Source: Candidatus Rokuibacteriota bacterium
Lineage (GTDB): Bacteria > Methylomirabilota > Methylomirabilia > Rokubacteriales > CSP1-6
Direction: 5' to 3'
Assembly (NCBI GenBank): GCA_003220225.1
Contig: QHRU01000072.1
Span: 1 to 64,000 of the forward strand
Length of the DNA stretch: 64,000 nt
Every line of letters begins with the position of its first letter. The stretch's first letter is position 1. The position numbers were made by a program, and so were the translations under genes. Under the pieces are notes generated by a model. The model saw only the letters and a program-made list of their open reading frames with translations. It was not told the DNA's origin and did not search any database. Positions 8,003-57,127 of the stretch are shown piece by piece.

Positions 8003-8095
8003 GTGGGGGGCCCCGATATGGCCCCCCACGCCCCCCAACGCTCGGAGCGCCCCGGGGAACCCGTGGCGCTCCTCGGCCACGCGCGCGCTCATCGG
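8003..8095 (+). repeat. Dispersed structured repeat, copy A
   Basis: This 90-base segment between the CaiB-like start and the acyl-CoA dehydrogenase stop begins GTGGGGGGCCCCGATATGG and recurs at 51808-51903 (inverted) and 54857-54933. It has two hairpins: GGGGGGCC/GGCCCCCC around 8005-8027 and GGAGCGCC/GGCGCTCC around 8044-8073. The 3' part runs a few codons into the dehydrogenase gene. It sits in a transcribed gap within one operon. Confidence 0.75.
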
Positions 8096-51807: not shown

Positions 51808-51903
51808 CCATCGGTGAGCGCACGCGTGACCGAGGAGCACCACGATTCATTCGGGGCGCGACGAGCGCTGGGGGATGTGGGGGGCCATGTCGGGGCCCCC
51901 CAC
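51808..51903 (-). repeat. Dispersed structured repeat, copy B (inverted)
   Basis: The minus strand of this segment reads GTGGGGGGCCCCGACATGG and continues along copy A to the end (TGCTCCTCGGTCACGCGTGC). It sits between the permease stop (51796) and the ATPase start (51915) inside one operon. The first hairpin (51879-51901) is intact; the second is degenerate. Confidence 0.75.
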
Positions 51904-51914
51904 GATGGTAGCGA

Positions 51915-52988
51915 GTGAGCAAGCTGGCGCTGCGCGAAGTCACCTGCCGCTTCGGCGCCTTCACCGCGGTGGATCGCGCGACGCTGGCGCTGGCCCGCGG
52001 CGAGTTCGTCTCGCTGCTCGGCCCCTCGGGCTGCGGCAAGACCACGACGCTGCGGATGATCGCCGGCTTCCTCGACCCCACGGAAGGCACCATCGAGCTG
52101 GACGGGCGCGCGATCTCGGCGCCCGGCCATTCGCTGCCGCCCGAGAAGCGCGGCATGTCGATGATCTTCCAGTCATACGCGATCTGGCCGAACATGACGG
52201 TGGCCGAGAACGTCGGCTTCGGCCTCGAGGTGCGCCGCCTGCCGCGCCTGGAGATCCGCGACAAGGTCGACCGCATCCTGGACGTGGTGCGCATGCGCCA
52301 CCTCCGCGACCGCTACCCGGCCGAGCTGTCGGGCGGCCAGCAGCAGCGCGTGGCGCTGGCGCGGGCCATCGTGGTGCAGCCCGACGTCCTGCTGCTCGAC
52401 GAGCCGCTCAGCAACCTCGACGCCAACCTCCGCGAGGAGATGCGCTACGAGATCCGTCGCCTGCACGACGAGTTCCACATCACGACCGTCTACGTGACCC
52501 ACGACCAGGCGGAGGCCATGGTGACCTCCGACCGCATCGCGGTGATGAACGCCGGGCGCATCGAACAGGTGGACGAGCCACGCGCGCTCTACGCGCGGCC
52601 GCGTACGCGCTTCGTCGCCGGCTTCATCGGCCGCACGAACTTCCTCGAGGCCGAGGTGCGCGGCGACGACGTCACCTTCGACGGCTTCGCGATCCCGCGC
52701 GCGCGCTTCGCGGACGGCGCCGCGCTGGGCGGCCGCCTGACGTTCTCGCTCCGGCCGCAGAGCGTCCACCTGCACCGCCAGCCGCCGCCGGCCTCCGATC
52801 GCGCGGCGCTGCTGCCGGGCCGCGTCGTGCAGCGCGCGTACCTCGGCGAGCACTGGGACTATGCGGTGCGCCCCAAGGACGGGGCGCTCCTGCTGCGCGT
52901 CACCGCGCGGCCGCACGAGGTCTTCGAAGTCGACGAGAGCGTCTGGCTGGAGCTCGACGCCCGGCAGATGGCGCCCATCGCGGACTGA
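51915..52988 (+). CDS. ABC transporter ATP-binding protein (FbpC-like)
   Basis: GTG start at 51915; 357 residues. Walker A LLGPSGCGKTTTLR, Q-loop MIFQSYAIWPNMT, signature LSGGQQQRVALARA, Walker B LLLDEPLSNLD and the switch VYVTHDQAEAM are all present. The C-terminal 120 residues are a TOBE-like domain. It drives the importer encoded by the two upstream genes, despite the 118-base gap with the repeat. The solo copy of the inverted-repeat element begins one base after the stop. Confidence 0.93.
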   Translation: MSKLALREVTCRFGAFTAVDRATLALARGEFVSLLGPSGCGKTTTLRMIAGFLDPTEGTIELDGRAISAPGHSLPPEKRGMSMIFQSYAIWPNMTVAENVGFGLEVRRLPRLEIRDKVDRILDVVRMRHLRDRYPAELSGGQQQRVALARAIVVQPDVLLLDEPLSNLDANLREEMRYEIRRLHDEFHITTVYVTHDQAEAMVTSDRIAVMNAGRIEQVDEPRALYARPRTRFVAGFIGRTNFLEAEVRGDDVTFDGFAIPRARFADGAALGGRLTFSLRPQSVHLHRQPPPASDRAALLPGRVVQRAYLGEHWDYAVRPKDGALLLRVTARPHEVFEVDESVWLELDARQMAPIAD

Positions 52989-52989
52989 C

Positions 52990-53142
52990 GTCGCGGGCGG
53001 CCGGGGTGGCGCGGCCCCGTTCGAGCACGCAAATCGACAGTACCGGGACGCCTGTCAAGGTGCCACGATTAATTGCCGGGGCCGACGCAGTACCCAGAAG
53101 ACACGGCTCTCACGGGGCCGCGCCACCCCGGCCGCCCGCGAC
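52990..53142. repeat. Solo element with perfect 30-bp inverted arms
   Basis: The left arm 52990-53019 (starts GTCGCGGGCGGCCGGGGTGG) and right arm 53113-53142 are exact reverse complements over 30 bases and enclose a 93-base core. Read on the minus strand, the core shares long blocks with the 130-bp array at 55928: TGAGAGCCGTGT, GGGTACTGCGTCGG, GACAGGCG/TACAGGCG and TCGATT. It lies directly 3' of the ABC ATPase gene and could fold in RNA or act as a mobile or structural element. Confidence 0.85.
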
Positions 53143-53219
53143 GCCAGCCGTGCCGGGTACTCTCCGGCCCTTGCGGACACCACACGCGTGGGTGATATGC
53201 TCCCGGGACGGAGGTGGTC

Positions 53220-54856: not shown

Positions 54857-54933
54857 GTGGGGGCCCCGACATGGCCCCCACACCCCCAACGCTCGGGGCG
54901 CCCCGGGAAACCCGGGGCGCCCCTCGGGAACCC
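54857..54933 (+). repeat. Dispersed structured repeat, copy C
   Basis: This copy begins 2 bases after the TPR stop with GTGGGGGCCCCGACATGG and ends just before the ATG of the dehydrogenase gene. The second hairpin reads GGGGCGCC/GGCGCCCC where copy A has GGAGCGCC/GGCGCTCC, so the A-T pair became G-C on both sides. It forms the whole leader of the next gene. Confidence 0.75.
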
Positions 54934-55899
54934 ATGCCCAAGCTCCTGATGCTCCCGCCACAGAGCCCGAAGACGCGCGAGTGGGCCGCGCGCGTGAAGG
55001 CCGGCGTTCCGGGGCTCGAGGTCGTCGTGGCCGAGGACGCGGCGGCCGCGCGCGCCGCCATCGCGGACGCCGACTGCGCGTTCGGCACGCTGCCCGCGGA
55101 TCTGCTCGGGCAGGCCAAGCGGCTGCGGTGGCTCCAGGCGCCGCAGGCCGCGCCGCCCGCCGGCTACTACTATCCGGCGCTGGTCCAGCACCCGGTCGTG
55201 GTCACCAACTTCCGCGAGATCTACAACGACCACATCGGCGCGCACATCATGGCGTTCGTGCTCGCCTTCGCCCGCGACTTCCATCGTTACCTGCCGCAGC
55301 AGGCGCGGCGCGAGTGGAAGCCGGCGCCGCTCGACACCGGCGTGGTGCACCTGCCGGAGGCGACGGCGCTGATCGTCGGCGTGGGCGGCATCGGCGCCGA
55401 GGCGGCACGACTGGCGGCGGCGTTCGGGATGAAGGTGCTCGGCGTCGACGCGCGCCGCAAGGACGTACCGCCCGGCGTGGCCGAGCTGCACCCGCCCGAG
55501 GCGCTCGATACGCTGCTGCCGCGGGCTGACTTCGTGATCCTCACCGTGCCGCACACGCCGGCCACCGAGGGCTTCATGAACCGCGCGCGCTTTTCGAAGA
55601 TGAAGCGCAGCGCGTTCTTCATCAACATCGGGCGCGGCAAGACGACGCGGCTCGACGACCTCGGGGCCGCGCTGCGCGCGGGCGAGATCGCGGGCGCCGG
55701 GCTCGACGTCTTCGAGCAGGAGCCGCTGCCCGCCGACCATCCGCTGTGGAGCACGCCCGGCGTGCTGATCACGCCGCACACGGCCGGCTTCGGCCCCTAC
55801 CTGGACGAGCGCCGCTTCGAGATCCTGCTCGACAACTGCCGGCGCTTCACCGCCGGCCAACCCCTCCGCAACGTCGTCGACAAGCCCGCCTGGTTCTAG
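54934..55899 (+). CDS. D-2-hydroxyacid dehydrogenase
   Basis: From ATG 54934, 321 residues. TALIVGVGGIGAEAARLAAA is the NAD loop (GxGxxG), with catalytic Arg in FINIGRGKTTRLDD, Glu in DVFEQEPLPADHPLW and His in ITPHTAGF. The frame is open through the repeat to 54871, but that part (PTPPTLGAPRETRGAPRE) is repeat sequence, not protein. It is followed 28 bases later by the tandem array. Confidence 0.92.
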   Translation: MPKLLMLPPQSPKTREWAARVKAGVPGLEVVVAEDAAAARAAIADADCAFGTLPADLLGQAKRLRWLQAPQAAPPAGYYYPALVQHPVVVTNFREIYNDHIGAHIMAFVLAFARDFHRYLPQQARREWKPAPLDTGVVHLPEATALIVGVGGIGAEAARLAAAFGMKVLGVDARRKDVPPGVAELHPPEALDTLLPRADFVILTVPHTPATEGFMNRARFSKMKRSAFFINIGRGKTTRLDDLGAALRAGEIAGAGLDVFEQEPLPADHPLWSTPGVLITPHTAGFGPYLDERRFEILLDNCRRFTAGQPLRNVVDKPAWF

Positions 55900-55914
55900 C
55901 GAGACGTGCGAGCC

Positions 55915-56712
55915 GCGGTGGGGTCCCGTGAGAGCCGTGTTTCGGGTACCGCGTCGGATCCGGCGACGTCAGCGGTGCCCGCTTACAGGCGCGACCCGTC
56001 GTCGATTGGCGTGGTCGAACACGGCCCCGCCGCGGGCGCGGGGCGCGGCGGGGCCGTGTGAGACCCGTGTGTCGGGTACCGCGTCGGGTCCGGCGCCGTC
56101 AGCGGTGCCCGCTTACAGGCGCGACCCGTCGTCGATTGGCGTGGTCGAACACGGCCCCGCCGCGGGCGCGGGGCGCGGCGGGGCCGTGTGAGAGCCGTGT
56201 TTCGGGTACTGCGTCGGGTCCGGCGCCGTCAGCGGTGCCCGCTTACAGGCGCGACCCGTCGTCGATTGGCGTGGTCGAACACGGCCCCGCCGCGGGCGCG
56301 GGGCGCGGCGGGGCCGTGTGAGACCCGTGTTTCGGGTACTGCGTCGGATCCGGCGACGTCAGCGGTGCCCGCTTACAGGCGCGACCCGTCGTCGATTGGC
56401 GTGGTCGAACACGGCCCCGCCGCGGGCGCGGGGCGCGGCGGGGCCGTGTGAGACCCGTGTTTCGGGTACCGCGTCGGGTCCGGCGACGTCAGCGGTGCCC
56501 GCTTACAGGCGCGACCCGTCGTCGATTGGCGTGGTCGAACACGGCCCCGCCGCGGGCGCGGGGCGCGGCGGGGCCGTGTGAGACCCGTGTTTCGGGTACT
56601 GCGTCGGGTCCGGCGCCGTCAGCGGTGCCCGCTTACAGGCGCGACCCATCGTCGATTTGCGCGGTCGAACACGGCCCCGCCGCGCCCCGCGCCCGCGGCG
56701 AGGCCCTGTTCA
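55915..56712. repeat. Tandem array of six 130-bp units, each with a hairpin
   Basis: Units begin at 55928, 56058, 56188, 56318, 56448 and 56578, each near GTGAGA(G/C)CCGTGTTTCGGG. Each has a core of about 93 bases and a 15-bp perfect stem CACGGCCCCGCCGCG/CGCGGCGGGGCCGTG around a 9-base loop. Units differ at a few sites (ACC/ACT, GATCC/GGTCC, CGACG/CGCCG). In the sixth unit the loop and following arm are inverted (GCCGCGCCCCGCGCCCGCGG). Small frames inside it are repeat-made and not counted as genes. Confidence 0.95.
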
Positions 56713-56719
56713 GCCAGCG

Positions 56720-57127
56720 TCAGGGATTCACGATGTCGACGCCGACCAGCACGACCTTGGCGCCGCCGCGGTTCTCCGCCCAGTGCTCGACGTCGCGCGA
56801 CTCGGTGATGATGCCGCCGGGGCCGAGCGTCTTGCTGTAGCCGCCCTGCCGCAGCTCGGTCAGGCTGCCCTGCAGGATGTACGCGAAGGCCGGCCGCTCC
56901 TTGTGGCTGTGGAAGCCCGCCACGCCGCCCGGCTCGAAGGTGATCGTGCGGATGCGCAGCTGGTAGCCGGGCATGTCGGGCGCGAGGTCGATCGTGCTCT
57001 CGACCTTGGCGTCGAGCCCCTTGTTGTCCATGGGCGGGCTCTGCTGTCCCACCGCAGAGCCGAGTTCGAAGCCCACGCCCAGCGCGAGCACGCCGACGAG
57101 CGCGACGATCCAGCGCGATCCGTTCAT
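56720..57127 (-). CDS. Secreted cupin-domain protein
   Basis: The 135-residue protein has an N-terminal hydrophobic anchor (WIVALVGVLALGVGFELG) and a cupin: TFEPGGVAGFHSHKERPAFA with the His pair and Glu of motif 1, and GPGGIITESRDVEHWAEN with the His of motif 2. It probably binds a metal in the periplasm; reaction unknown. It converges on the tandem array, with its stop at about 8 bases from the array end. Confidence 0.85.
   Translation of the reverse strand: MNGSRWIVALVGVLALGVGFELGSAVGQQSPPMDNKGLDAKVESTIDLAPDMPGYQLRIRTITFEPGGVAGFHSHKERPAFAYILQGSLTELRQGGYSKTLGPGGIITESRDVEHWAENRGGAKVVLVGVDIVNP

Follow-up and report, generated by a model that had tools for sequence, protein, structure and literature searches.

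Small palindromic repeats at gene ends are common in bacteria, and it is an unsettled question how their stems arise and stay matched. The REP/BIME sequences with their RAYT transposases share several features with the locus considered here: they are short, intergenic, located mostly 3' of genes or between convergent genes, and are thought to be RNA elements (PMC3733652, PMC2817692). REP units are of 20–40 bp, carry GTAG/CGTC tags and have arms common within a family, whereas the present element has a core of about 89 nt with the ends GAGACC..GGTCGA and locus-specific stems of 25–48 bp. Its membership in the REP/RAYT group was rejected on unit size, on tags and because no Y1 transposase was found; matches to PF01797 were absent from the genomes G000–G003, while control genomes were positive.

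Bacterial MITEs, of which Correia and ERIC are examples, are similar in being 100–200 bp long, dispersed and intergenic, in needing no ORF and in forming a hairpin once transcribed. RNase III cleaves the transcripts of Correia elements, and ERIC elements are found at the 3' ends of genes in Yersinia (PMC10969869). The terminal inverted repeats of MITEs are conserved and move with the element, whereas here the terminal arms do not accompany the core. As in MITEs, the element is short, dispersed (49 copies of an 89-nt core), apparently without protein-coding capacity and polymorphic in its insertions, with empty orthologous sites in the genomes G001 and G002; shared terminal inverted repeats were not detected, arm identity being about 0.46 whatever the identity of the cores. 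The element resembles the REP, ERIC and Correia interspersed repeats but lacks their tags, transposase or shared terminal repeats.

Integron attC sites likewise fold as single strands in which short conserved boxes accompany a variable portion. Their conservation lies in the outer boxes and their variability in the loop, the reverse of the present element, with its conserved loop and variable outer arms. This candidate was rejected, the boxes of the element, GTCGAAC and GTGAGAC, not fitting RYYYAAC and GTTRRRY. Finally, quasipalindromes are known in which perfect inverted repeats are made and mended by fold-back copying, and template switching of this kind predicts multi-base compensatory changes together with a G-C/U-A asymmetry (PMC8794818, PMC8604942). 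Quasipalindrome switching is a mutational process and not an element, whereas in our case it would act around one conserved mobile core and copy the ends of host coding sequences.

The window, i.e. the whole stretch of 64,000 nucleotides that was analysed, contains one tandem array, detected by TRF at 55914–56684 (period 130, 5.9 copies, 96% matches, score 1416); the same 130-bp period was obtained in a separate repeat search. Together with its outer arms, as delimited by repeat and hairpin searches, the array occupies 55914–56716 on the forward strand, and the six-unit array of 130-bp hairpins described in the first-pass annotation was confirmed. Six 89-nt cores, GAG..CGA, are located on the same strand at 55930–56018, 56060–56148, 56190–56278, 56320–56408, 56450–56538 and 56580–56668. 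By sequence comparison, the first of them belongs to subtype 1, and its 5' arm (55914–55929, forward strand) is diverged from those of the other units. Adjacent units are joined via a perfect stem of 16 bp, not 15 bp as initially proposed, with a 9-nt loop; this strand-neutral junction palindrome consists of a shortened 3' arm and the next 5' arm, reads ACACGGCCCCGCCGCG-GGCGCGGGG-CGCGGCGGGGCCGTGT, and is situated at 56019–56059 and again from 56149, 56279, 56409 and 56539, i.e. every 130 nt. No hairpin of the array's score was found in first-order Markov controls of the window. Single-base variants differ between the units and occur in mixed combinations. Since the units carry different point variants, the array is not one sequence printed six times; the units are evidently separate copies that have exchanged sequence, their exact number being uncertain in a metagenome-assembled genome.

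Upstream of the array lies a D-2-hydroxyacid dehydrogenase gene (PF02826; 54934–55899, forward strand), convergent with a cupin gene (56720–57127, reverse strand) that has its stop codon towards the array's 3' end. The array was earlier said to lie directly 3' of a dehydrogenase gene, which is true of this site, but the association recurring throughout the family is that with the gene lying antisense on the opposite side, in this case the cupin gene. Terminator-like sites, consisting of a hairpin followed by a T run, were absent from 55700–56900, so that the array does not qualify as an intrinsic terminator. The window also contains a second, single copy of subtype 2 at 52985–53147 on the reverse strand (core 53021–53111, stem of 36 bp), whose stem takes in the stop codon of an ABC-transporter gene (51915–52988). 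In addition, a short repeat, GGGGGCCCCGAAATGGCCCCC, with a chance expectation of none, is present three times in intergenic gaps of the window, at 8006–8026, 51880–51900 and 54859–54879; it is frequent in G001 and G002 and occupies the place of the missing 5' arm at the locus L128.

The internal loops of the array read GGGCGCGGG, and the arm past the last core reads CCGCGCCCCGCGCCCGCGG, the reverse complement. This last segment had been regarded as reversed by template switching or by inversion within the hairpin. The sequence is real and template switching is relevant, but inversion is not needed to explain it: the sequence past unit 6, ACACGGCCCCGCCGCGCCCCGCGCCCGCGG, is the reverse complement of the 30 nt preceding the core, and the 3' arm is a plain complement of the 5' arm. 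Unit 6 is the sole unit with a full-length 3' arm (56669–56716, forward strand), which ends 4 nt short of the cupin stop codon and pairs with the 5' side of the stem (56532–56579, forward strand) over 45 of 48 nt. Two other arrays, C96 (5 units, period 136) and C124 (3 units, period 126), have the same ending, their last 3' arms likewise complementing the 5' arms, and inversion within the last hairpin was dropped. In a single element, a long 5' arm is matched by a 3' arm complementary to it throughout. On tandem duplication, a 3' arm that has been shortened becomes joined to the following 5' arm, and the whole 3' arm is left in the last unit only.

The genome-wide search for the unit led to a finding much larger than the array. 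One array unit, used as a BLAST query, matched about 30 further places in the genome, and a covariance model built on 43 copies revealed 49 copies, most of them single, in the Rokubacteria genome G000 at E ≤5e-10. The congeners G001 and G002 contain 14 and 13 copies, respectively. Within the family, matches at E ≤0.001 were obtained in 24 of 57 genomes; 38 genomes belonging to other families in the phylum gave none. Phages and plasmids gave no copies, and an origin from either was rejected. The covariance models of Rfam 15 gave chance-level matches only in the window array and none for the loci L015, L017 and L022; no Rfam family or tRNA-like element was found. These negative results agree with the initial impression that no known repeat family is involved. 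The named records carrying the core belong to Candidatus Rokuibacteriota. Two contigs filed under the Acidobacteria MAG AA35 (L050, QHVJ01000235.1, and L062, QHVJ01000615.1) also match; since their cores and inner arms are identical to those of G000 copies, they are most likely misbinned. A search for a longer autonomous version with the same ends, using the 3'-end motif with ≤2 mismatches, gave 52 sites, nearly all of them known copies, and this candidate was discarded. A literature search for a published description of the element in Rokubacteria gave nothing relevant. The window array belongs to a hitherto unrecorded family of mobile hairpin elements, small in size and dispersed in these soil bacteria.

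Among 43 loci, 34 of the 88 columns of the core are invariant and eight are highly variable. Two subtypes were distinguished, in which TTTCGGGT occurs together with ATCGGTGC and TCTTCTGGGT with ATCGTGGC. What more distant members retain is the pair of ends, GAGACCCGTR..GCGTGGTCGA, and a stem that is long and GC-rich; they differ in their interiors and vary from 30 to 95 nt overall. In a minimal relative, L117 (G013:C133), the conserved ends GAGACCCGTG and CGTGGTCGA enclose a core of just 30 nt, and the stem is long. In most intact copies, the closing stem is 25–48 bp long, and it is different at every locus. The pairing with the next unit, noticed first in the array, is present but is a by-product of the array; the pairing that matters is that of the core closed by its own two arms, which pair in register in 97.9% of cells over 43 loci, compared with 74.4% after shuffling and 35–50% when slid by 1–3 columns. 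Of 23 stem pairs, 18 vary on both sides, a value attained in 0 of 500 shuffles. A covarying helix of this kind is expected of a structured RNA, but the covariation was set aside as a proof of RNA function because fold-back copying would also cause it; the balance of G-T and A-C mismatches, given below, serves in its place. A second helix, small and with one bulged U, closes the core itself (GACCCGU/GCGUGGUC; GACC-CGU with GCG-U-GGUC), and compensatory variants occur at two of its pairs, in two sequences each. For helices inside the core beyond this one, covariation was too weak to support a fold.

The genomic position of the copies was established using a simple codon-usage gene caller trained on the window, the loci being counted by hand. 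Of 60 independent loci, about 45 have the core antisense to the gene beyond the 3' arm, with the stop codon 30–92 nt away; in distant subfamilies, a similar antisense placement at gene ends was observed in 14 of 19. As a rule, the end of the 3' arm is separated from the stop codon of the antisense gene by 0–25 nt. At L137, where the rpoA and aminotransferase genes are convergent, there are two elements, each facing its own gene.

The gene ends beside 13 copies were searched for in G001 and G002, whose orthologues are 85–95% identical. L010, L015, L130, the rpoA/dapL site and the window array are empty in both sister species; in G001, the site of the array is reduced to 6 nt between the stop codons of the dehydrogenase and cupin genes. 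All three species have a copy at L017, the outer arms of which have diverged strongly; L025 carries different subtypes in two species, and L020 in G002 is a remnant from which the core is deleted. No clean target-site duplication was recognised among orthologous sites, where the boundaries are masked by the arms. Downstream of a peptide ABC gene in G001 (L169), a GC-rich hairpin is present that is long, has a short loop and lacks the core; the counterpart site in G000 holds L014, and the arms of the two look unlike each other.

Comparison of 1914 pairs of copies demonstrated that arm identity is independent of core identity, the outer arms being about 0.46–0.50 identical at core identities of 0.7–0.95. 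For example, the cores of L015 and L022 are 95% identical, their arms about 30%. In orthologous copies such as L020_1018 and L140_1499, the arms are still recognisable. Since arm identity ignores core identity while orthologous copies keep their arms, the arms are evidently not carried along with the core. A common consensus, though weak, is present in the inner 12 nt of the arms.

Some arms are apparently copies of sequence from the adjoining gene. The far flank of a copy is more similar to the inverted coding end of the adjacent gene than are the far flanks of other loci, z being 4.8 in the initial 30 nt, 4.6 in the following 30 and 2.0 for positions 60–90. Individually, 10 of 43 loci matched at p ≤0.05, 2.2 being expected (Fisher p 9e-4 against other loci and 1.4e-5 against shuffles). 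On the far side of about a quarter of the testable loci there is an inverted, decayed copy of the end of the adjacent coding sequence; at the rpoA locus, the far side reads GCAGGACGAGCGCCTACGGAGGTAG and the true gene end GCAGTACGAGCGCGCGTACGAGAGCTAG. The far copy is the derived one because the coding sequence was there first, which is in keeping with fold-back template switching. In arm pairs, G-C exceeds C-G by 601:387 and U-A exceeds A-U by 95:20, an asymmetry that has been ascribed to intrastrand template switching (PMC8794818), a process which both creates and mends inverted-repeat arms (PMC8794818, PMC8604942).

Locus-specific arms that are not inherited with the core could also be expected if the core inserted into the loop of ready-made long palindromes, such as transcription terminators, the arms simply being the differing targets. 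We consider this rather unlikely. The copies do sit at terminator positions and native hairpins at gene ends do exist, but besides the elements the 64-kb window has only two stems of such a score, both of 17 bp, and its native gene-end stems measure about 11–17 bp versus 25–48 bp in the elements. Furthermore, the orthologous empty sites contain no palindrome, one of them being only 6 nt in length, and some element stems extend into coding sequence.

An ordinary MITE-like or REP-like element, moving with its inverted-repeat arms which then undergo fast compensatory divergence, would be consistent with the size, the intergenic 3' location, the copy number, the empty sites and the consensus in the inner part of the arms. 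Such an element is unlikely, however: arm identity is at background even between cores that are 90–95% identical, orthologous copies retain their arms, and REP tags and a Y1/RAYT transposase are missing.

On the element strand, G-T mismatches in the stem outnumber A-C mismatches by 42:6, whereas the ratio is 34:33 in the decayed outer copies, whose alignments include chance columns (Fisher p 5e-5 versus the stems). With G-T and A-C equally frequent in those outer copies, the wobble excess is hard to attribute to a simple mutational bias; part of it could nevertheless be mutational, as the core has an excess of C-to-T changes on the element strand (16/817 versus 6/1118). Of 52 copies, 48 form a more stable fold from the element strand than from its complement. 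The wobble bias and the fold stability point to selection on a single-stranded form, most likely RNA, although single-stranded DNA is possible. As to function, it may be guessed that the element is a 3'-end structure limiting convergent or antisense transcripts.

Strong covariation, strand-biased pairing and a fixed gene-end position would also suit a non-mobile, vertically inherited cis-regulatory RNA of the 3'-UTR or terminator class with occasional duplications. We think this improbable in view of the lineage-specific copy numbers (49, 14 and 13), the many empty sites between genomes with genes 85–95% identical, the differing subtypes at one site (L025), the tandem arrays and the broken copies. 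An artefact of the metagenome-assembled genome, i.e. snap-back palindromes or collapsed repeats, is conceivable in that palindromes are hard for short-read assemblers, but it is very improbable, since several genomes assembled independently show the same anatomy at dozens of loci, the arms are complementary and not identical, and the units differ by point variants.

Summarizing these data, the explanation we favour, with some reserve, is a small mobile structured element whose arms are made locally by fold-back template switching, the pairing being maintained afterwards, probably in the RNA form of the element strand. The moving part of this non-autonomous element would be the core of about 90 nt, GAGACC..GGTCGA, presumably mobilised in trans. 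A copy would settle antisense, 30–60 nt beyond the stop codon of a gene, where its self-folding core may let replication switch template, so that the gene-side flank is copied inverted onto the far side. Fold-back copying would thus build a long locus-specific stem and keep its inner 25–45 bp matched, older outer copies of the coding end being left to decay. Each copy would then be kept foldable on the element strand, where the stem, the second helix and the conserved apical domain may form one hairpin at the gene end; at the window site, one copy would have been tandemly duplicated to six. Of these points, the dispersal of the copies, their gain and loss, their fixed orientation, the independence of arms and core and the strand bias of the wobble pairs are demonstrated; the template-switch route, the role as RNA and the mobilisation in trans are inferred. 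More tentatively, the family may represent a new class of mobile elements that carry only a conserved loop of about 90 nt and have the stem built at each site by fold-back copying of the 3' end of a host gene, the product being subsequently selected as an RNA hairpin.

Several observations stand against the favoured explanation. No mobilising enzyme was found in the searches for Y1 in four genomes and for the reverse transcriptase RVT_1, which has three matches in G000 (C141, C75 and C132) and none in G001 and G002; a group II intron or reverse transcriptase partner was rejected on the absence of RVT_1 from both congeners. The orientation of the core is nearly fixed, although template switching also inverts loops (PMC8604942), and only about one locus in four has a significant inverted coding-end signal.

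That hairpins originate by template switching is usually deduced from ancestral reconstruction. In the family described here, one conserved core is combined with dozens of independent stems, empty sites in sister species and gene-end remnants, which makes such an origin testable on many natural replicates. If the copies are kept as RNA, they would represent an unrecorded structure in an uncultured soil lineage.
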